Origin: Lachnospiraceae bacterium
Lineage (GTDB): Bacteria > Bacillota > Clostridia > Lachnospirales > Lachnospiraceae
DNA: 64,000 bases
Assembly: GCA_014804365.1 (NCBI GenBank)
Contig: JAAUZX010000026.1
Span: forward strand, 41,730 to 105,729
Direction: 5' to 3'
Both the position numbers and the translations under genes were made by a program. A model generated the notes under the pieces. It was not told the DNA's origin and did not search any database. It was given only the letters and a program-made list of their open reading frames with translations. Below, piece after piece: positions 6,355-55,269 of this stretch; the first letter of the stretch is position 1, and the number at the start of each line of letters is the position of its first letter.

Positions 6355-6368
6355 GAGTGTGGTATAAT
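6340..6368 (+). promoter_or_regulatory. Sigma-A-type promoter
   Basis: GTGACA (6340-6345), 17-bp spacer, TATAAT (6363-6368), immediately upstream of the palindromic element at 6381. Confidence 0.6.
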
Positions 6369-6380
6369 ATTCACGCTTTA

Positions 6381-6581
6381 TCTAAGCCGTTCGCGCAGAT
6401 GGAAGCTAATATCTACGGAGCCGCGCTCTCGCTCCGTAAAAAGCATAGCAGACGCTAAACTCGTGAGTTGCTTTGCAACTCTTAACCTCGTTAAGCGCTG
6501 ACCAAAGTTAATTTCGAAGAAATTTACTTTTTTTATGGGGCTCCTTAAGAAATTAGCTTCCATCTGCGCTAGGTATTGGAT
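6381..6581. repeat. Large imperfect palindrome, family copy 1
   Basis: 18-bp perfect outer stem GCGCAGATGGAAGCTAAT (6393-6410) / ATTAGCTTCCATCTGCGC (6552-6569); core GAGTTGCtttGCAACTC; similar to 51515-51691 and, in the core, 51715-51880. Confidence 0.85.
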
Positions 6582-6615
6582 TATGACGGAACGGTGACAA
6601 ATAGGGAATTATATT

Positions 6616-13737: not shown

Positions 13738-16700
13738 ATGAAAAAATCAAAAAGAAGATTACTAACGGGATTATTATGTATCGCATTGCTTGGAGCAGAC
13801 ATTATGTCGTCAGGGATTCAAGTGTTTGCGGCAAACCCTGCAATAGAGCTGGAGGCGGAGTATGAAGAAAGTAGTGAAGATTCAAATGAAAATGATATTG
13901 TAGATGATGATTCTACGGATAAATCTGACAGTAATGTCATAGAGGCAGAAGAAGAGGATGAATCCGAAGACGAGCAGGAAAAAGAAAATTCACAAGAACA
14001 GGACACAGATGAAGATAATGTGGATAGAATAAACGAGGATGAAAGCAAGGATTCGGCTGATGAAGCGGAAAGTGGAAGCACCGATGAAGACAAAATAGTG
14101 GAGAACATTGGGGCTGACGGAGTAGCTTCTGAAAGCGTGGTAGAGATACTTGCGCGGATTTCTTCGGAGGATGATCTTGAAAGAGGAGTTGTTGATGAGG
14201 ACTATGGGCATATTGCGTGGGTTATCGATGTTAATGGGAAACTCAAGGTTGAGGGAACTGGGGATTATTGTAATCCCGATCCTGCATCTTCCAGCCTTCC
14301 TCCGTGGTATTCACCTAGGTATTGTATTTTATCTGCGGAAATTAATGTGAAGGGTATGACAAATTCTTCTTATATGTTTACGCAATGTGAAAGATTGAAG
14401 AGCGTAGATTTACGTGGTTTGGATACGACAAATGTGACGGATATGTCAAGGATGTTTTTTAAGTGTGAGAGTCTCACAAACTTGGATTTAAGGAACTTTA
14501 ATACAAGAAATGTGATAAATATGTATAACATGTTTTTTGGATGCGATAGTCTTACGAGTATAAACGTAAGCAGTTTTAATATCGAAAATGTAGTAGATAT
14601 GGGAGGTATGTTTGAAGGGTGTGAGAGCCTGACAAGTTTGGACATAAGTAGTTTTAGCATAGCGAATGCAACAGATATTAATATGGGAAGGATGTTTGAG
14701 GGCTGCAGCAGCCTGACGACCTTAGATTTAAGCAGCCTTGATACGGCAAACGCAACAGATATGGGATATATGTTTGAGGGCTGCAGTAGTCTTACCAGAT
14801 TAGATGTAAGCGGCTTTGATACGGTAAATGTAAAAAATATGACAGGTATGTTTAGTAATTGTACTAATTTAGCCAGCTTGAATTTAAGTGACTTTAATAC
14901 AGTGAACGTAACAGATATGGGATATATGTTTGACGGGTGTAGCAGTCTGACCAACTTGGATTTAAGTAACTTTGATACGGCAAACGTAACAGATATGGGA
15001 TATATGTTTCACAATTGTAGCAGTCTGGTCGGCTTGGATATAAGTAGTTTTGATACAGCGAATGTAACAACTATGAGAGATATGTTTAGTTGGTGTGGGA
15101 ATTTAATTGGTTTGGATGTAAAAAACTTTGAAACAGTGAATGTAGAAAGTATGTTCTATATGTTCGCTGGGTGTGAGAATCTGACACACTTAGACGTAAG
15201 TAACTTTATAACCACCAATGTCAAAAATTTTGATAGTATGTTTGCTGGTTGTAAGAAGTTAACAAAACTTGATTTGAGAACTTTTGATATGCTTGATATC
15301 GATGCGGGTGGTTCATTTTATATGCTTGATGGGTGTTATGGGCTTAATGAAATATATACACCGATTATTGGATCAGATCGTAGAATATCTCTTCCAAAAG
15401 AAACGGATTCAGATGTTTGGTATATGCATGATGGAACAAAAATCGATTATATATCTGACCTTTCGGAAAGTGTTCACATCATGAAAAATGAAATTCCCGG
15501 GAAATATGGTATTACGTTTGATCCGCAGGGAGGAAAAATAAATTATAATGAACAGACCGGTCTATCGACTCTTATTTTAAGTACCGGAGCAGAGGATAAA
15601 ATAAAAAAATTGCCTGATGGAGTAAAGGACGATTATTTATTTGTTGGCTGGTACACAGCTGTGGAAGGGGGGACTCGCGTCACTGAGGATTATATTTTTA
15701 CTGAGAATACAACTCTTTTTGCGCGTTATGAGGAAAAGCCACTTACGGCAGAGCAAAGCGCAATAAAACCAAAGAGTGTTACATATAAGTATGCTTATGA
15801 GAAAATAGACGTTCTTAAGAAGGCTCATAGTATTGAATCTGATCATGAACCTTTTACTTTGGTATGCACATCGGTAGTTCAGACCAAGGTGCGTAATTAT
15901 ATTTTGTACTATAATGAAGAAGTAATCGCTGAAAGTGCCAATGGTGCATTTATAGATATTGATCCGTCAAAATATGATACCGGAGGTGTCTTTTATCTTG
16001 AGACCGTAGGTGCAGATAATGGAAAAACTGCAGAGCGTGTTAAAGTAAAGCTATTATTGCAAATAAAGAACAAAAATATTGCAGTTCCAAGCTCTATTAG
16101 TTTATTTGGGAGTGGTTTTTCTGTCACCTTGGATGAGGACGTGCCTATTGTAGGCGGTCAGAAGATTAGTCTGGCTTTCCCGGATATCCCTTTTAGTTGT
16201 GTGGTCGAAGATAATAAGATTAAATTGGGATTAAATTTAAAGGAGAAGACGTTATATAGTGCTGATTCGTATAATGGAGAGACGACATCAACACCGCCCA
16301 AATCTTTATCACAACAGGTGGAGGAGTGGAAAAAAGACTTAAGAAAAAGTCGTGATATCAAAAAAGATGTGAAGGGCTATCTCGAAAAAGACGATTTGGA
16401 TGCAGATATTCCCGGCATGGAAAAGAAATGCAAATTGACTGTATTTGGATATTTGGAAAGCGAATTTTATCGTTCTTATGCTACGGGTGCACACGAATTT
16501 AAGACTGTGTCCGGAGAAATTGTAGTTGCGATTTCCGGATCACGGACGACGCAGAAGCAGAGTGCAATACCTATTGGATTTTTAACGATTCCTGTTACAT
16601 TTAATTGTTCTTATACTGGAAATGGAACGCTGACCGGTAAGCTTAAGTGGGATTTTACCAGTGCCTCGTTTTTTCCATTAGACGCAGATGTTACCGGATC

Positions 16701-19700
16701 GGTAAGCGTTGCGGTCGAACCCTATGGCGGAGTAGGCGTTGGCAAGTGGGTCAGTGTTGGTCTTTATGGGAAAGCCGAAATCGGAACAAATTTCACCGTA
16801 GCCAGTACTGCTACTACTCGCGGGCTTGATGATGTCTATTTGTATGGAGAGGCAGGCATAAAAGCATATTTTGCCAAAAAAGAAGGAAAAGTGAGCCTCA
16901 TATCAATGGCAACGCTTGAGAAAAAATGGCCGACATATTTTGATAATAAAAATCATTTGCTCCTATGGTCCCGAAAGCAGGATTCGCTGATGAATAAGGT
17001 GGATTCATCAGACGTATCAAGAAGTGCGCCCGGCATGGAATTAATGGATATCCAATTTGCAATGAGCGAGGTTGAGAATTCCAGCGTTGTCAGAGGTTTT
17101 GTGGATTTAGGGAAATATATTGATAATGCTTATGCGGGTGCCGAACCTCAGATTGCGTCATCTGATGCGGCGACAATTCTCGTCTATATTGATTATGACA
17201 CATCGCGGGCGGAGGCTAATCAGACCGTAGTGAAATACGCACTGATAGCTGATGATGGAACCATATCAACCCCTGTGATTATGTTTGATGACGGGACGGC
17301 GGATACGAACCCGGTACTTTATTCTACCGGCAATGACATATATTGTGCATATCTGAATTCAGATAAGGTATATGATGATAATGATGATCCAGATATTGAT
17401 GCTTACGTCGGCACGTTTGGTGTGTCTGTAAGCAAATACGACAGTGAAAAGGGAGCTTTCATTGATCTGGGCAGAGTCAATAAGAATCACTGTTATTGCT
17501 ATGCGCCGCAGTTGACAGAAACGGAAGAGGGTATAAAGTTGGTTTGGGCGGAAAATATGGATAATGATATTTTTGGTCTGACTGGTCATAATACAATTTA
17601 TTCATCTGTATATTCCGGTGGTGAATGGAGTGTTCCGGACAATGTGGCAGAAAATGTGAACAGCATTACTTCATTAGCGGTTTCTCCGACAGGGTTCGTT
17701 GCATGGGCTGTAGATGAGGATAATGACCTGACTACCGACATACAGAGTATTTATGTCGATAATGTGTTACAGGCGCATGATTCTGCTTCTTACTTGACAT
17801 GGACCAACCTTCCGGGAGTTATGGGAACCGTGCTTGCGTGTAATATAAATGGTGGTTTGGCATACATAGACGGATCATCTTTCGTGGAATATTTTGAAGA
17901 AGGCATCATGGACAGCAGCAGCCCGTTTGTTGTTTATAATGGAAGCATTTATTTCCTGAAAACATCTGGGGGCCAGCGTAATGTCTTGGCGGCATTTTCC
18001 GATAACAACAACGAAACGGGAATAGGACAGCTTACAATAACTGATGATTATGTAGATGCATTTTCACTTAGTAATGGCAAGCTCGCAGCGCTTATAACGA
18101 AGGTCTCTGCGAACGAAGAAGATGGTAACATGTCTACTTCATCTTCCATCTATATTTATGATGACGAGCGATATGATCTGGTTCTGGATGAGGCGAACTA
18201 TGATCTTGATTTTGCAATGCCGGGAAAGAGAATGCCTATAAATCTGGCGGTGTCTAACGCTGGCACTAAGACGATAAGTTCATTCAATGTCACCTTGGAA
18301 TCCGGAGAGTCTCAGGAGGTAGACTGCATCTTGGCACCGGGTGAGAGTAAAACACTTACGGTATACATGACTGCTCCGGATAGTTTTGCAAAAGATGTTA
18401 TCATTAAGGTTTCTGAAACTGATGGTGTGGATTCAGATGAAAGTAATAATGAGCAGATATTGAAATTGAGTCGTACGGAGCTATCTGTGGTTACTAAATT
18501 TCTTATTGAGAATGATGCGAGATATCTGGAAGCGACAGTTACCAATGACAGCTATATTGATGCATCCATGACACTTACTGCATATGATTGTGATGATAAT
18601 GAAATCAACAGTGTAAGTGAAGATGTCGAGGCTAAGTCTGCTAAAATATATACGATTGATATTTCTTCTTATATACCGGAGGATGATACGGATTCGTTTG
18701 TATATGTTACGGTTCGGACGGATCAGGAAGAATATTATGAAAGCAATAATACGGATTCTGCCGGCATATGGAATATGGATCCGGGTGAAATTACTGTAAC
18801 CGGATCGGATACAGAGAACAGCAGCGATGTAGGAGGATATACAGATGGTGTATTGTGGATCCTTGACGGTGATGGAAATGCTGTGATCGGTATTCGCTCA
18901 GAAGAGGATAATACAAATACTGAACTGACAGAAAGTGTCTGGACAGATACTTCGGCTGAAAGAGTAACTAACATTATCGTAGAAGAGCTTGTAACTTCAA
19001 TAGGTGAAAATGCATTCAGTAATTGTAATAATCTCGAGAATATCACAGTACTGAATGATGAATGCCGTTTGGCTGCCGGTGCGATTCCTTCCGGGACAAC
19101 CGTATATGGAAATTATGGCTCAACAGCATATGAGTATGCAGTCGATAACGGATTGAAATTTGAAGCATTGGATGAACTTACACATGATCATAGATGGGAT
19201 GATGGAAGTATCACAGTTGAGCCGACTTATGAAGCGGACGGAATAGAAGTATATACTTGTGTATATTGTGGAATTACATGTGAAAAAACACTTCCAATGT
19301 TGGGAAGTGCTAATGAGACAGTATATTATCTGGTGACATTCGACAGTTGTAACGGGGATATAGGAATCATATCAAAAAATATAGTATATGAAGGAATCTG
19401 TGGAGAATTACCGGTTCCAACAAAAAAAGGATATGAGTTTGGTGGATGGTATACTGAAGAAGGGGGAAACGGAGAATTATTTACTAAAGATACGGTTGTC
19501 ACTGACAATATAACAGTATATGCATATTGGTATTATCAGGGAATGGCTGTTGAAGGTGTTGAATCTGATTATATATATACCGGGGCACAGATAAAGCCGG
19601 TGGCAACAGTATATGATGGTGCGAATCTCCTCGCTAACAAGAAGGACTATACCGTAACATATAAGAACAACACCAAGGTCTACACTCTTACTGAGGCTGA

Positions 19701-21693
19701 CGAAGGTTTTGATGCGGCTAAGGCGCCGACTGTAATTGTTACCGGAAAAGGAAATTATAAGGATAAAGAGAAAGTTTATTTTACTATCAGCCCGAAGAAT
19801 ATTACAGATGAAGATATTACTGTTTCGGATATAGCACCATCTTTGCCGACCAATAAGAATCAGACACCTGTACCTAAGGTAACCTGGGGCAAGAAAAAAC
19901 TGACCAACAAGACTGACTATACGGTTACCTACTATTCTGACGAGATGTGTACACAGACGGTAATACCCAGGGATCCGGGGACGTACTATGTGAAAGTATC
20001 GGGAAAGGGCAATTACACCGGAGAAAGAGTTTTGACGTTTGTAATTGCCGAAAGTACACAGAAGCTTGTCAGCAAGTTATCTGTAGGAAAAATAAAAGAT
20101 AAGCCATATACAGGTTTACCAATAGAACTTGCCTCCACGGAACTTGTTGTTATGGATGGAAAAAATGTGTTGACGGCAGGGAAAGATTATATAGTCACAT
20201 ATCAGGATAACCATACTGATATAGGAACGGTCACTTTGACCATTACAGGTGTTGGGGAGATCTATGTGGGTACGAAGACTGTCACTTTCAAAATTACCGG
20301 AGCAACACTTGGCAAAGCTTCTATGACAGGGTTTAAGGCATCCTTATCTTATGCATATGGAAGCACGGTAAACCAGTCGGTATCATTTACGTATGATGGT
20401 GTAATGCTAAGCGGTATTTCTGCGTCCGAATATGCAGAATTAACTGATGTCGATACGAAAAGAAGTTATGACTATACTTACGAATATACAAACAACATTA
20501 ATCCGGGAAGGGCAACTGTCGTATATACAGGTATCAACAGGTTCACCGGAACTATAAGGAAGACCTATACCATTACCGGAACAGCACTCAGCAAGGCAAA
20601 AATTGAAACGGCCATATCTTCCTTTACATATGATGGCACTGCCAAAACGCAGGATATTCTTAAGCTGACATACACAGCTTCTGGGACGGTGGAGCCTGTG
20701 GAACTTAACGGGATACTTAAGAGTGATTATGATAAGCTTGGGACAACAGAACAGCTTAAATATGATTACATTATTGATTACCAGAATAATGTAAGGGCTG
20801 GAACTGCTAAAATTATACTGACAGGTGTCAACGGCTATACTGGAACGGTAACGAAGACATATAAGATTGCTCCATTTGATATTTCAAAGGATGCTTCAAA
20901 TACGTTTAAAATTGCTCTGGATAGCAGTGCCGTTTATTATTCAAAAGCAGGTGCAAAGCCTGAACCGGTAGTGACCTTCAACGGAGAAGTACTTAAAAAG
21001 GGAACGGACTATACGGTAAGCTGGTCAAATAATAAGGCAGTGAATGATGGAACCGGAACAAAAAAGCCGACAATAACAGTAAAAGGAAAAGGTAATTTCA
21101 AGGGTACTGATGGGACAACCACGTTTACTATCTCACAGCGACTTATTGACGACGGTAGTATTAAGGTGTCTGTTTCGGATAAGGTATATTCCACTAAGAA
21201 GAATGCATGGAAATCATCAGTTGTTGTTATTGATGCGGATGGTAAAAAACTTTCAATGGGAACAGATTATGAAAAGGCGGTGGTTTATACTTATAAGGAC
21301 AGCGGAGCGCTGGTTGCTGACAGTGACGTAGTTCCTGCTGGAACTACAATTGTTGCCACTGTTACAGGCAAAGGTAACTATATCGGAGCTCTGTCAGGGG
21401 AGTATAGAGTCGTTACGAAGGATATAGGTAAGGTCACAGCCACCGTGTATCCCAAGACTTATACGGGTAAAGAGGTAAAACTTTCCGAGAGTGATATCAT
21501 TTTTAAGTCTGGTAAAGATCTTTTGACCGGTGTGACCTATACTATTGACGAGTCAACCTATAAGAACAATATTAATAAAGGCAAGGCAACAGTCGTAATT
21601 AACGGAACAGGAGATTATGGTGGTGCCAAGAAGATCACATACACCATTGGAGCAAAAGGCTTCCTATGGTGGTGGAGGAACCTGAGCAATTAG
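13738..21693 (+). CDS. Giant secreted/surface protein: BspA-like DUF285 repeats, InlB B-repeats, CARDB-like and Ig/MBG-like repeats
   Basis: Signal peptide MKKSKRRLLTGLLCIALLGADIMSSGIQVFAA; acidic Glu/Asp/Ser stretch; repeated MFxGCSSLTxLDLSxFDTANVTDMGYMF; two FDxxGG...GWYT...LFARY/TVYAYW modules; repeated KDYTVTYxNN...GKGNYKG modules; C-terminus IGAKGFLWWWRNLSN. Confidence 0.9.
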   Translation: MKKSKRRLLTGLLCIALLGADIMSSGIQVFAANPAIELEAEYEESSEDSNENDIVDDDSTDKSDSNVIEAEEEDESEDEQEKENSQEQDTDEDNVDRINEDESKDSADEAESGSTDEDKIVENIGADGVASESVVEILARISSEDDLERGVVDEDYGHIAWVIDVNGKLKVEGTGDYCNPDPASSSLPPWYSPRYCILSAEINVKGMTNSSYMFTQCERLKSVDLRGLDTTNVTDMSRMFFKCESLTNLDLRNFNTRNVINMYNMFFGCDSLTSINVSSFNIENVVDMGGMFEGCESLTSLDISSFSIANATDINMGRMFEGCSSLTTLDLSSLDTANATDMGYMFEGCSSLTRLDVSGFDTVNVKNMTGMFSNCTNLASLNLSDFNTVNVTDMGYMFDGCSSLTNLDLSNFDTANVTDMGYMFHNCSSLVGLDISSFDTANVTTMRDMFSWCGNLIGLDVKNFETVNVESMFYMFAGCENLTHLDVSNFITTNVKNFDSMFAGCKKLTKLDLRTFDMLDIDAGGSFYMLDGCYGLNEIYTPIIGSDRRISLPKETDSDVWYMHDGTKIDYISDLSESVHIMKNEIPGKYGITFDPQGGKINYNEQTGLSTLILSTGAEDKIKKLPDGVKDDYLFVGWYTAVEGGTRVTEDYIFTENTTLFARYEEKPLTAEQSAIKPKSVTYKYAYEKIDVLKKAHSIESDHEPFTLVCTSVVQTKVRNYILYYNEEVIAESANGAFIDIDPSKYDTGGVFYLETVGADNGKTAERVKVKLLLQIKNKNIAVPSSISLFGSGFSVTLDEDVPIVGGQKISLAFPDIPFSCVVEDNKIKLGLNLKEKTLYSADSYNGETTSTPPKSLSQQVEEWKKDLRKSRDIKKDVKGYLEKDDLDADIPGMEKKCKLTVFGYLESEFYRSYATGAHEFKTVSGEIVVAISGSRTTQKQSAIPIGFLTIPVTFNCSYTGNGTLTGKLKWDFTSASFFPLDADVTGSVSVAVEPYGGVGVGKWVSVGLYGKAEIGTNFTVASTATTRGLDDVYLYGEAGIKAYFAKKEGKVSLISMATLEKKWPTYFDNKNHLLLWSRKQDSLMNKVDSSDVSRSAPGMELMDIQFAMSEVENSSVVRGFVDLGKYIDNAYAGAEPQIASSDAATILVYIDYDTSRAEANQTVVKYALIADDGTISTPVIMFDDGTADTNPVLYSTGNDIYCAYLNSDKVYDDNDDPDIDAYVGTFGVSVSKYDSEKGAFIDLGRVNKNHCYCYAPQLTETEEGIKLVWAENMDNDIFGLTGHNTIYSSVYSGGEWSVPDNVAENVNSITSLAVSPTGFVAWAVDEDNDLTTDIQSIYVDNVLQAHDSASYLTWTNLPGVMGTVLACNINGGLAYIDGSSFVEYFEEGIMDSSSPFVVYNGSIYFLKTSGGQRNVLAAFSDNNNETGIGQLTITDDYVDAFSLSNGKLAALITKVSANEEDGNMSTSSSIYIYDDERYDLVLDEANYDLDFAMPGKRMPINLAVSNAGTKTISSFNVTLESGESQEVDCILAPGESKTLTVYMTAPDSFAKDVIIKVSETDGVDSDESNNEQILKLSRTELSVVTKFLIENDARYLEATVTNDSYIDASMTLTAYDCDDNEINSVSEDVEAKSAKIYTIDISSYIPEDDTDSFVYVTVRTDQEEYYESNNTDSAGIWNMDPGEITVTGSDTENSSDVGGYTDGVLWILDGDGNAVIGIRSEEDNTNTELTESVWTDTSAERVTNIIVEELVTSIGENAFSNCNNLENITVLNDECRLAAGAIPSGTTVYGNYGSTAYEYAVDNGLKFEALDELTHDHRWDDGSITVEPTYEADGIEVYTCVYCGITCEKTLPMLGSANETVYYLVTFDSCNGDIGIISKNIVYEGICGELPVPTKKGYEFGGWYTEEGGNGELFTKDTVVTDNITVYAYWYYQGMAVEGVESDYIYTGAQIKPVATVYDGANLLANKKDYTVTYKNNTKVYTLTEADEGFDAAKAPTVIVTGKGNYKDKEKVYFTISPKNITDEDITVSDIAPSLPTNKNQTPVPKVTWGKKKLTNKTDYTVTYYSDEMCTQTVIPRDPGTYYVKVSGKGNYTGERVLTFVIAESTQKLVSKLSVGKIKDKPYTGLPIELASTELVVMDGKNVLTAGKDYIVTYQDNHTDIGTVTLTITGVGEIYVGTKTVTFKITGATLGKASMTGFKASLSYAYGSTVNQSVSFTYDGVMLSGISASEYAELTDVDTKRSYDYTYEYTNNINPGRATVVYTGINRFTGTIRKTYTITGTALSKAKIETAISSFTYDGTAKTQDILKLTYTASGTVEPVELNGILKSDYDKLGTTEQLKYDYIIDYQNNVRAGTAKIILTGVNGYTGTVTKTYKIAPFDISKDASNTFKIALDSSAVYYSKAGAKPEPVVTFNGEVLKKGTDYTVSWSNNKAVNDGTGTKKPTITVKGKGNFKGTDGTTTFTISQRLIDDGSIKVSVSDKVYSTKKNAWKSSVVVIDADGKKLSMGTDYEKAVVYTYKDSGALVADSDVVPAGTTIVATVTGKGNYIGALSGEYRVVTKDIGKVTATVYPKTYTGKEVKLSESDIIFKSGKDLLTGVTYTIDESTYKNNINKGKATVVINGTGDYGGAKKITYTIGAKGFLWWWRNLSN
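14370..15350 (+). repeat. Tandem ~72-75-bp coding repeats (DUF285 units)
   Basis: Repeated ~25-aa units such as LTNLDLSNFDTANVTDMGYMFDGCSS. Confidence 0.9.
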
Positions 21694-51410: not shown

Positions 51411-51514
51411 CGCGCAATATATTGAATTGTGAATTAACTTATTGACTGCTATAGCGGGCGTTATGGGATGTGCTGTATAAAATGGTGGTTTGTATTGGAA
51501 TGGATAGTTGGGTT

Positions 51515-51691
51515 ATCTAAGCCGGACGCGCAGATGAAAGTTAATATCTACGGAGCCGCGCTTTCGCTCCGTAAAAAGCGTAGCGGACACTAAGCTCGAA
51601 AGTTGCGTTGCAACTTTATACCTCGCTAAGTGCCGACGCTTTTTAAGGGGCTCCTTAAGATATTAACTTCCCTCTGCGCTGGGTATTGGAT
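51515..51691. repeat. Large imperfect palindrome, family copy 2
   Basis: GCGCAGATGAAAGTTAATATCT / AGATATTAACTTCCCTCTGCGC outer arms; AGTTGCgttGCAACT core hairpin; similar to 6381-6581. Confidence 0.85.
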
Positions 51692-51714
51692 GAGCATAGG
51701 GCATTAGATTAAAA

Positions 51715-51880
51715 CGGACGCGCGGAACAGTATATATTTACCCTAAGGACGCGCTTTCGCTCGGTTCCAAACGCAGCGGTACTAAGCTCGTGAGTTGCGC
51801 TGCAACTCATAACCTCGCTAAGTGCCGGTGTTTTCCAACGGTCCTTATGGTAAATATATACTGCTCCACGCTGTATACCT
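51715..51880. repeat. Large imperfect palindrome, family copy 3
   Basis: CGCGGAACAGTATATATTTACCCTAAGGAC / GTCCTTATGGTAAATATATACTGCTCCACG outer arms; core ACTAAGCTCGTGAGTTGCgctGCAACTCATAACCTCGCTAAGTGCCG. Confidence 0.85.
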
Positions 51881-53205: not shown

Positions 53206-53316
53206 GCGAAGCCTAACTAAGAAGAGGACAAGGCATAATTATGCGAAACTCAACTAAGAAGAGGACAAGACACAATTGAGCGAAGCGCAACCATGAAGAA
53301 GACAAGCCACAATTGA
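53206..53316 (+). repeat. Three tandem 37-bp repeats upstream of asnB-like gene
   Basis: Units 53206-53242, 53243-53279, 53280-53316: GCGAAG..TAACTAAGAAGAGGACAAGGCATAATTAT and close variants. Confidence 0.85.
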
Positions 53317-53346: not shown

Positions 53347-55269
53347 ATGTGTGGAATTGCCGGATTATGTAATTGGGGTGACAACTGGCAGCGGAATATA
53401 GAGAGAATGAATGAGAAGATGTATCACAGAGGACCTGATGCTTCCGGCATCTGGGCATCTGAAGATCATGCGGTTGTTCTGGGACACAGAAGGCTCTCTA
53501 TTGTGGATCTGACTCCATCGGGTGCGCAGCCCATGGAATCTCATGACGGGCGTTACGTGATAGCCTATAACGGAGAAATCTATAATTATCGGACGATTCG
53601 GGACAGGCTGCTGCAGGAGCACAAGACAGCGGATTTTCGGGGGACATCTGACACGGAGATACTTCTGGAGGCAATCGCGGCATATGGAATGGAAGAGACA
53701 CTTCGCATGGCAAAGGGAATGTTTGCCATGGCCGTATATGACAAAAAAGAACAAATGTTATTTATTGCCCGCGACAGAGTGGGAGAAAAGCCTTTGTACT
53801 ATGGATTCGTGCGGGGAGACAAGTTTGTATTTGCTTCCGACCTGAATTCCATTGCGGCGTTGGAAGGTTTTGAAAACCCCGTTAATGCAGGGATTCTGGA
53901 GCAATTTTTTCGATATGGCTACATTCCGGCCCCCTATTCTGTTTATCAGAATATTTATAAATTAGAGCCGGGGGAATGCCTAGAAATTAAATTTCCATTT
54001 AATAAATATGATGTAAAAACCTACTGGTCCATGCGTGAGGCAGCGGTTTACGGGCAGTCGCATCTTTTTACGGGAAGTGAGACGGAGGCGGCGGAGGAAT
54101 TGGAACGTCTGCTGAAAGAATCCATTCGTGGCCAGATGGTGGCGGATGTGCCGGTGGGGGCATTCCTCTCAGCAGGAATTGACAGTAGCACGGTGGTATC
54201 TCTTATGCAGTCCATAAGTGACAGGAAAGTACGCAGCTTCACGATCGGTATGTGGGACGAGAAATTCAATGAAGCGGACATTGCCGGACAGATTGCGGCA
54301 CATTTGGGAACGGAGCATACTGAACTGTACATTACGGAAGAAGATGCCCGCGGGGTGATTCCCCATCTGGCGCATATGTTTGGGGAACCCTTTGCGGATT
54401 CGTCTCAGATTCCCACGTATCTGGTCAGTAAGATGACCAGGGAGCATGTGACGGTATCCTTAAGCGGAGACGGAGGCGATGAGCTGTTCTGCGGTTATAA
54501 TACCTACACCTCTATTGACAAAATCTGGCAGAAAACGCGAAAGATTCCTTATGGGCTGCGTAAGCCGGCCAGCGCACTTCTTGGTGCGGGGAGTGCCGGG
54601 AGTCACGGTGCCATGGCAGTCAGGGCCGGGCTTCTGGGTGCGCGAAGTATTGAGGATATGTATCTGCGATCCGAGATCGGAGAAGGGTTCCGGCTTGTGA
54701 GGAGGCAGAAGGGCGCGGCTAAAACTGAGGGAGAGTTATGCGCGCTGGCAGAGCGGTATGATACAATTATGGACACTTATCCGTCAGGACTTCTCAAGGA
54801 ACCGCAGCATAATTTGATGTTGATGGATCTGTTGATGTATCATCCTGACGACATTCTGTGTAAGGTGGACCGCACTGCCATGGCGGTCTCGCTGGAGACA
54901 AGGGTGCCTATGCTGGATCGGGATGTGGTAGAGTTTGCATGGACGCTTCCGCTGTCCTATCGCAAGCAGGATGGTGTGACCAAAAAGATTCTGCGTGATA
55001 TTCTCTATCGCTATGTGCCGCGTGAGTTGATGGAGCGGCCGAAGAAGGGATTCAGCATTCCCCTGCATAAATGGCTGAAGGAACCGGAACTGCGCGAGTG
55101 GGCAGAGAGTCTGATTGACAGGAAAACACTGGATGAGCAGGGCATATTGGAGACTGGTGTAGTATGGCAGTTGTGGGACGACTATATTAAGCGGGATATC
55201 TGGCGTGTGCAGATCTGGTATGTGTTGATGTTTCAGGAGTGGATGCGCACGTGTTATTTGCAGAAATGA
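53347..55269 (+). CDS. asnB: Asparagine synthase (glutamine-hydrolysing)-like amidotransferase, second paralogue
   Basis: MCGIAGLCNWGDNW, YNGEIYNYRTIRDRL, FLSAGIDSSTVVSLM, VSLSGDGGDELFCGYNTY. Confidence 0.93.
   Translation: MCGIAGLCNWGDNWQRNIERMNEKMYHRGPDASGIWASEDHAVVLGHRRLSIVDLTPSGAQPMESHDGRYVIAYNGEIYNYRTIRDRLLQEHKTADFRGTSDTEILLEAIAAYGMEETLRMAKGMFAMAVYDKKEQMLFIARDRVGEKPLYYGFVRGDKFVFASDLNSIAALEGFENPVNAGILEQFFRYGYIPAPYSVYQNIYKLEPGECLEIKFPFNKYDVKTYWSMREAAVYGQSHLFTGSETEAAEELERLLKESIRGQMVADVPVGAFLSAGIDSSTVVSLMQSISDRKVRSFTIGMWDEKFNEADIAGQIAAHLGTEHTELYITEEDARGVIPHLAHMFGEPFADSSQIPTYLVSKMTREHVTVSLSGDGGDELFCGYNTYTSIDKIWQKTRKIPYGLRKPASALLGAGSAGSHGAMAVRAGLLGARSIEDMYLRSEIGEGFRLVRRQKGAAKTEGELCALAERYDTIMDTYPSGLLKEPQHNLMLMDLLMYHPDDILCKVDRTAMAVSLETRVPMLDRDVVEFAWTLPLSYRKQDGVTKKILRDILYRYVPRELMERPKKGFSIPLHKWLKEPELREWAESLIDRKTLDEQGILETGVVWQLWDDYIKRDIWRVQIWYVLMFQEWMRTCYLQK

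Follow-up and report, generated by a model that had tools for sequence, protein, structure and literature searches.

Usual MITEs have conserved ends and free interiors, whereas in the element described here the ends and arms are free and the interior is constant over 34 genera. Conserved ends are also what MITE theory predicts. The BOX elements of Streptococcus pneumoniae are modular repeats with optional internal units, and REPs are not known to make a target duplication. REPs measure 20-40 bp (PMC3733652), and the Correia/NEMIS, RUP and ERIC repeats mostly end in 5'-TA-3' (PMC2229807). The bcr1-bcr18 repeats of the Bacillus cereus group are 100-400 bp long, occur at tens of copies per genome and show features of mobile elements; TTTAT motifs are linked to their movement, and they are confined to the B. 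cereus group (PMC6542083).

The element was recognised as a large palindrome in the window, by which we mean the whole analysed stretch of 64,000 nucleotides from a Lachnospiraceae bacterium (genome G000). In the preliminary description, three copies with paired arms and a conserved core were taken for a candidate structured RNA or non-autonomous mobile element. Based on its copies, ends and insertion sites, we consider the palindrome to be, very probably, an old member of a MITE-like family of non-autonomous DNA transposons in Lachnospiraceae. No earlier description of this Lachnospiraceae repeat was found in the open-access literature.

Copies of the palindrome in the window

The core of copy 1 is a palindrome of 179 nt at window positions 6392-6570, in the long form with both optional hairpins. 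Its outer arms of 22 nt are 95% complementary, and the outermost 18 bp are perfect in an inverted-repeat search; the palindrome with an 18-bp perfect outer stem and the core quoted in the preliminary description are both present in the sequence. Folded as RNA, the + strand of copy 1 reaches -84 kcal/mol (z = -7.8) and the - strand -81 kcal/mol (z = -7.0); among the shuffled sequences none was equally stable, for either strand. Copies 2 and 3, both related to copy 1, occupy 51513-51691 and about 51707-51872, respectively. The features in the window are as follows.

6392..6570, + strand: core of copy 1 (covariance model R1 match G000:C26:48121-48299; alignment A1)
6393..6414, + strand: outer stem P1 of copy 1, 5' arm (inverted repeat)
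6548..6569, + strand: outer stem P1 of copy 1, 3' arm (inverted repeat)
6417..6422, + strand: stem P2, 5' strand GGAGCC (alignment columns 26-31; double changes in 4/6 pairs)
6539..6544, + strand: stem P2, 3' strand GGCTCC (alignment columns 149-154)
6449..6460, + strand: central stem P4, 5' strand, conserved CTAAAC(TCG) (alignment columns 58-69)
6490..6500, + strand: central stem P4, 3' strand (ACCTC)GTTAAG (alignment columns 100-110)
6465..6481, + strand: optional apical hairpin GAGTTGC-TTT-GCAACTC, a +15-nt module (all-or-none among copies)
6504..6530, + strand: optional side hairpin AAAGTTAATTTC-GAA-GAAATTTACTTT, a +25-nt module (inverted repeat I4; length classes)
6363..6374, + strand: possible decayed left terminal inverted repeat TATAATATTCAC, compare GTTACTTTTCACA (position and likeness to fresh copies; missed by an end-repeat search allowing 2 mismatches, and alone not significant)
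6582..6598, + strand: possible decayed right terminal inverted repeat TATGACGGAACGGTGAC, compare TGTGAAAAGTAAC (position and likeness to fresh copies)
51527..51680, + strand: core of copy 2, 154 nt, with apical hairpin (R1 match G000:C26:93256-93409)
51719..51872, + strand: core of copy 3, 154 nt (R1 match G000:C26:93448-93601)
51720-51750 / 51841-51871, + strand: stem of copy 3, second arm subfamily (inverted repeat)

The paired arm and core changes that had been quoted between copies are present in the sequence. For CGGTACT/AGTGCCG of copy 3 this is true of the paired change but not of full Watson-Crick compensation, since a U·G pair lies inside. Clear end repeats or target duplications were not found at the window copies, which have at most doubtful traces of their ends. 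Copy 1 is common to the near relatives G027, G066, G067 and G070 and is therefore old, and all window copies are old.

Several further features were observed in the window. A 53-nt repeat, TCGTAACTGYGAAGAACAGGGTTCTGAACAGTTACG, has two copies that are 87% alike (459-511 and 1047-1099; GTAACTGTTCAGA on the minus strand), and a similar hairpin flanks the element copies L006 and L027. A T-box leader lies on the - strand at 564-813 (Rfam RF00230, 117.8 bits). An ORF of 2651 aa (13738-21693) with BspA-type leucine-rich repeats and DUF285 is a candidate large surface protein; within it, a 78-bp unit forms a tandem array at 14681-15226. Directly before the ORF at 53347, a 37-bp unit, AACTAAGAAGAGGACAAGACACAATT..., is present three times in tandem (53206-53316).

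Layered structure and distribution of the element

From the outside to the inside, the element is composed of a terminal inverted repeat, P1, P2, a GCGCTTTCGCTCC stretch, P3, P4 and a loop. P1 is a long stem of variable sequence, and GCGCTTTCGCTCC is a small conserved stretch between P2 and P3. P3 is free in sequence and nearly constant in complementarity, as in AAAAAGCGT/ACGCTTTTT, GCTTACCGT/ACGGTAAGC and CACAGCGC/GCGCTGTTC. An A·A mismatch is constant in P4, and the loop motif is CTCG...ACCTCG; in some copies the loop holds an extra apical hairpin, the sequence of which differs while its self-complementarity is always kept. Thus, the arms and ends vary among copies and one central hairpin is nearly constant. 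Core lengths range from 139 to 179 nt in discrete steps (139, 154, 164 and 177-179 nt), since each of the two hairpins is either wholly present or wholly absent. With its ends the element measures about 200-240 bp, individual copies spanning about 72-236 bp, and it has no transposase gene.

In its own genome, the element was found as 56 matching pieces by BLAST and at 58 separate places (reverse-strand echoes excluded) by a covariance model built from 29 copies of that genome. The covariance-model search also detected it in 34 of 36 congeners, and 24 genomes representing other families of the order gave no match. Across Lachnospiraceae, the exact central motif CTAAGCTCG-N5-6-ACCTCGCTAAG is present in 34 of 199 genera, compared with none of the 199 for the pattern read backwards as a control. 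Named carriers are almost all labelled Lachnospiraceae, Butyrivibrio, Acetatifactor or Clostridiales, the few others (e.g. 'Bacteroides sp.' and 'Clostridiaceae') being MAG names; the cultured Butyrivibrio sp. CB08 is among the carriers. No match to the element was obtained in phage and plasmid collections.

Ends, target duplications and empty sites

Terminal inverted repeats were found in fresh copies, with target duplications flush with the ends, and the ends are of two types. Type A ends (GTTACTTTTCACA...TGTGAAAAGTAAC) occur in G000, G028, G067 and others, and type B ends (TAGGTAATTGCGAAACT...AGTTTCGCAATTACCTA) in several other Lachnospiraceae genomes, G085-G091. Direct duplications of 8 bp, with at least 7 of 8 positions identical, accompany 10 of 30 type A end pairs against 0.00 expected from permuted controls. 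Type B end pairs carry duplications of 9-12 bp in 13 of 41 cases against 0.08 expected from permuted controls, and of 8 bp in none of the 41.

Moreover, filled and empty forms of the same sites were found among related genomes. The L021 site is clean-empty in two relatives (G066 and G070), both of which have otherwise intact flanks; G066 is also empty at the L029 site, and the L025 site shows a partial deletion in G027 with a piece of the right arm remaining. Behind a zinc-ribbon gene lies a site that is empty in G019 and filled in G005 (L047); the copy in G010 (L043) is near-identical to L047 and lies in the opposite orientation, suggesting that the palindrome was inverted in place. In G016 the copy at this site has different arms, and in G003 it has an internal deletion. 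The terminal repeats, target duplications and empty sites together identify the element as a non-autonomous DNA transposon (MITE), so that the mobile half of the initial alternative is supported.

As a separate observation, at least one further palindromic repeat family, e.g. GAGTGAGAAGTACTTCTAA...AAGTCTCACTCGGGAGAATGCC...GGCATTCTCC, is present at the zinc-ribbon intergenic site in other congeners (L179, L182, L197, L199 and L208), and the right flank of L008 contains a repeat of this type as well.

Among the end-repeat matches listed, with type B ends surveyed in seven genomes and type A ends in three, none belonged to an autonomous element; draft genomes often lack repeated IS copies. The missing partner may count against the MITE reading. 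Searches with PF00872 and PF01609 yielded only three transposase genes in the searched genomes, none with these ends, and IS256-type (PF00872) and DDE_Tnp_1 (PF01609) transposases were rejected as the partner, the inspected loci being without such ends. Two pairs of end-like sites were also rejected as chance occurrences: the 1.09-kb pair lies in the gene of an ABC permease, and the 4.4-kb pair in an ABC transporter region.

One core on two kinds of ends

Core segments of type A and type B elements are 63% identical on average and up to 85%, whereas their first 40 nt are 31% identical, which is near chance. Coreless relatives with the same ends, one of 86 bp with TTATTTCT and one of 83 bp with ATTGTAATAT, carry flush duplications. 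In addition, type B includes a class of 147 bp that lacks P3 and P4 and recurs in G087 and G088, with flush duplications at several copies; because this class multiplies without P3 and P4, movement there does not need the core. In its behaviour the core is thus a module distinct from the ends. Pairing of the loop CCU with AAGGG behind P3, as a pseudoknot, was rejected as AAGGG is missing in many type B copies.

Covariation and block exchange between copies

In 29 copies from the same genome, 95.5% of cells are paired and both sides have changed in 27 of 47 pairs, partly through block exchange between copies, in agreement with the paired changes of the preliminary description. There are 130 double-change cells, as against 35.7 in shuffles and at most 13 with the partner strand slid by 1-3 columns. 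P4 has double changes in 7 of 10 pairs, with 99% of its cells paired. The covariation is far beyond chance, though the copies are not independent events.

Comparison of orthologous sites revealed how such changes can travel. At the L017 site, where the flanks are about 95% identical across five genomes, a block of changes, with about seven matched double changes among them, sets the core of the own genome apart from those of the other four. The relative G070 has, at the L002 site, nearly the same arms and a different core. Cores therefore move between copies as blocks, and part of the covariation is thus copied, not selected anew. The 'copying of a structure' proposed at the outset is supported by both sites, where the core was replaced blockwise and the arms or flanks were retained.

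These swaps, together with the scarcity of intermediate states and the symmetry of the mismatches, favour an explanation in which the paired changes are wholly a by-product of the palindrome, through inherited subfamilies, gene conversion and template switching, and the core has no function. However, the A·A mismatch of P4 and the CTCG...ACCTCG loop persist over 34 genera, across different P1, P3 and apical sequences, which counts against this explanation because template switching should erase the mismatch and neutral drift the loop sequence. We regard a functionless core as possible, though on balance doubtful. As judged from their conservation over the 34 genera, the unpaired motifs CTCG and ACCTCG point to a putative function of the core, which is also a point against the MITE reading.

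A more specific proposal, which we put forward tentatively and consider rather improbable, is that the central hairpin is a functional module of folded DNA or RNA, bound by a putative conserved Lachnospiraceae protein. At least two unrelated families of transposons would have acquired the module, which would spread between copies by block conversion, with selection acting on the module and not on the transposon end.

Wobble pairs, neighbouring genes and a possible role as RNA

The strong covariation and the unpaired core motif conserved over the 34 genera would also suit a core that is a functional structured RNA, either a 3'-untranslated element or a small RNA, which rides a mobile element and ends, protects or processes the upstream message. 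Structured RNAs tolerate G·U but not A·C. In the present copies, G·U is not enriched over A·C in any stem: the counts are 162 and 157 in the P1 arms, 15 and 30 in P3, and 25 and 22 in P4, respectively. As G·U and A·C are equally frequent, the stems look maintained at the DNA level, and RNA selection on one strand is not supported by the wobble counts.

The genomic setting bears on the RNA role from both sides. For most genes that run into the element, 5-50 nt separate the stop codon from the core, single distances being approximate because the genes were called by a simple ORF rule. Among tandem settings in this genus, the core has the orientation of both neighbours in 44 cases and is opposed to them in 14 (p = 1e-4), and this same-strand preference with the upstream gene leaves room for an RNA-level role. 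The bias also counts against the MITE reading, as a pure DNA parasite need not show one. In contrast, the preference is absent in the wider sample (27 vs 25), the same insertion stands in opposite orientations in G005 and G010, and the 147-bp class multiplies without P3 and P4. A search of Rfam, proposed in the preliminary description, matched no known family; gathering and permissive thresholds gave a chance match only and nothing like the element. No constant gene partner of the element was found. A functional RNA is therefore unlikely, and of the initial alternative the RNA half, as a function, is the part that is not supported, given the wobble counts, the Rfam result and the lack of a constant partner gene.

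Closely spaced inverted pairs of elements, about 50-600 bp apart and in the order + then -, are frequent (L114, L095, L087, L083, L098, L120 and L131; in the own genome L003, L005 and L011). A transposase shared between the paired elements was considered and rejected: the intervening genes are ordinary chromosomal genes, none common to the pairs. Inverted neighbours, high copy number and positions near stop codons recall REP-type palindromes moved by a Y1 transposase (RAYT or IS200/IS605) or recombination hairpins such as attC, but those systems make neither true terminal inverted repeats nor flush duplications, which here measure 8 or 9-12 bp, and the element is about 200 bp in size, so that such an origin is highly improbable.

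Discussion

For the preferred reading as a MITE-like transposon, the following course of events is proposed. A DDE-type cut-and-paste transposase, supplied in trans, would recognise the end repeats and make a staggered cut of 8 bp at type A ends and of 9-12 bp at type B ends, and insertion may often take place just behind stop codons. The interior nested palindrome could form a cruciform or a single-strand hairpin, folding as DNA. Stem complementarity appears to be kept at the DNA level by the whole-block exchange between copies seen at two sites, and probably also by template switches inside the palindrome. Elements with two unrelated kinds of ends bear the central hairpin CTAAGCTCG-N5-6-ACCTCGCTAAG as a module, which is probably kept as a putative folded-DNA binding site for a host or transposition protein. 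That the conserved part is the centre, not the ends, counts against the MITE reading.

The same interior carried by two systems with different target-cut lengths provides a natural test of selection on the inside of a bacterial MITE. The element is also a warning to searches for RNA motifs, as block exchange between copies can produce covariation in repeated palindromes; counting wobble pairs on both strands can help to separate such exchange from RNA selection. For annotation, the element explains a large group of hairpins that follow genes in Lachnospiraceae of the gut and rumen.

In comparison with known systems, the element resembles the Correia/NEMIS, RUP and ERIC MITEs, which are non-coding, about 100-200 bp long and present in many intergenic copies, with terminal inverted repeats, target duplications and strong hairpins when transcribed; it differs from them in having two unrelated end types and a conserved centre instead of conserved ends. 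Like bcr1-bcr18, it is a repeat with mobile features at tens of copies per genome in a Firmicutes setting, whereas its duplications are not TTTAT, vary in sequence and measure 8 or 9-12 bp, and its host is Lachnospiraceae. It shares with REP/REPIN sequences the nature of an extragenic palindrome behind genes, but unlike REP/RAYT it is larger than 20-40 nt and has target duplications. With its optional internal units it is like BOX in modularity. The element is thus a new family of MITE-like elements, unusual in its conserved central hairpin across two end types.
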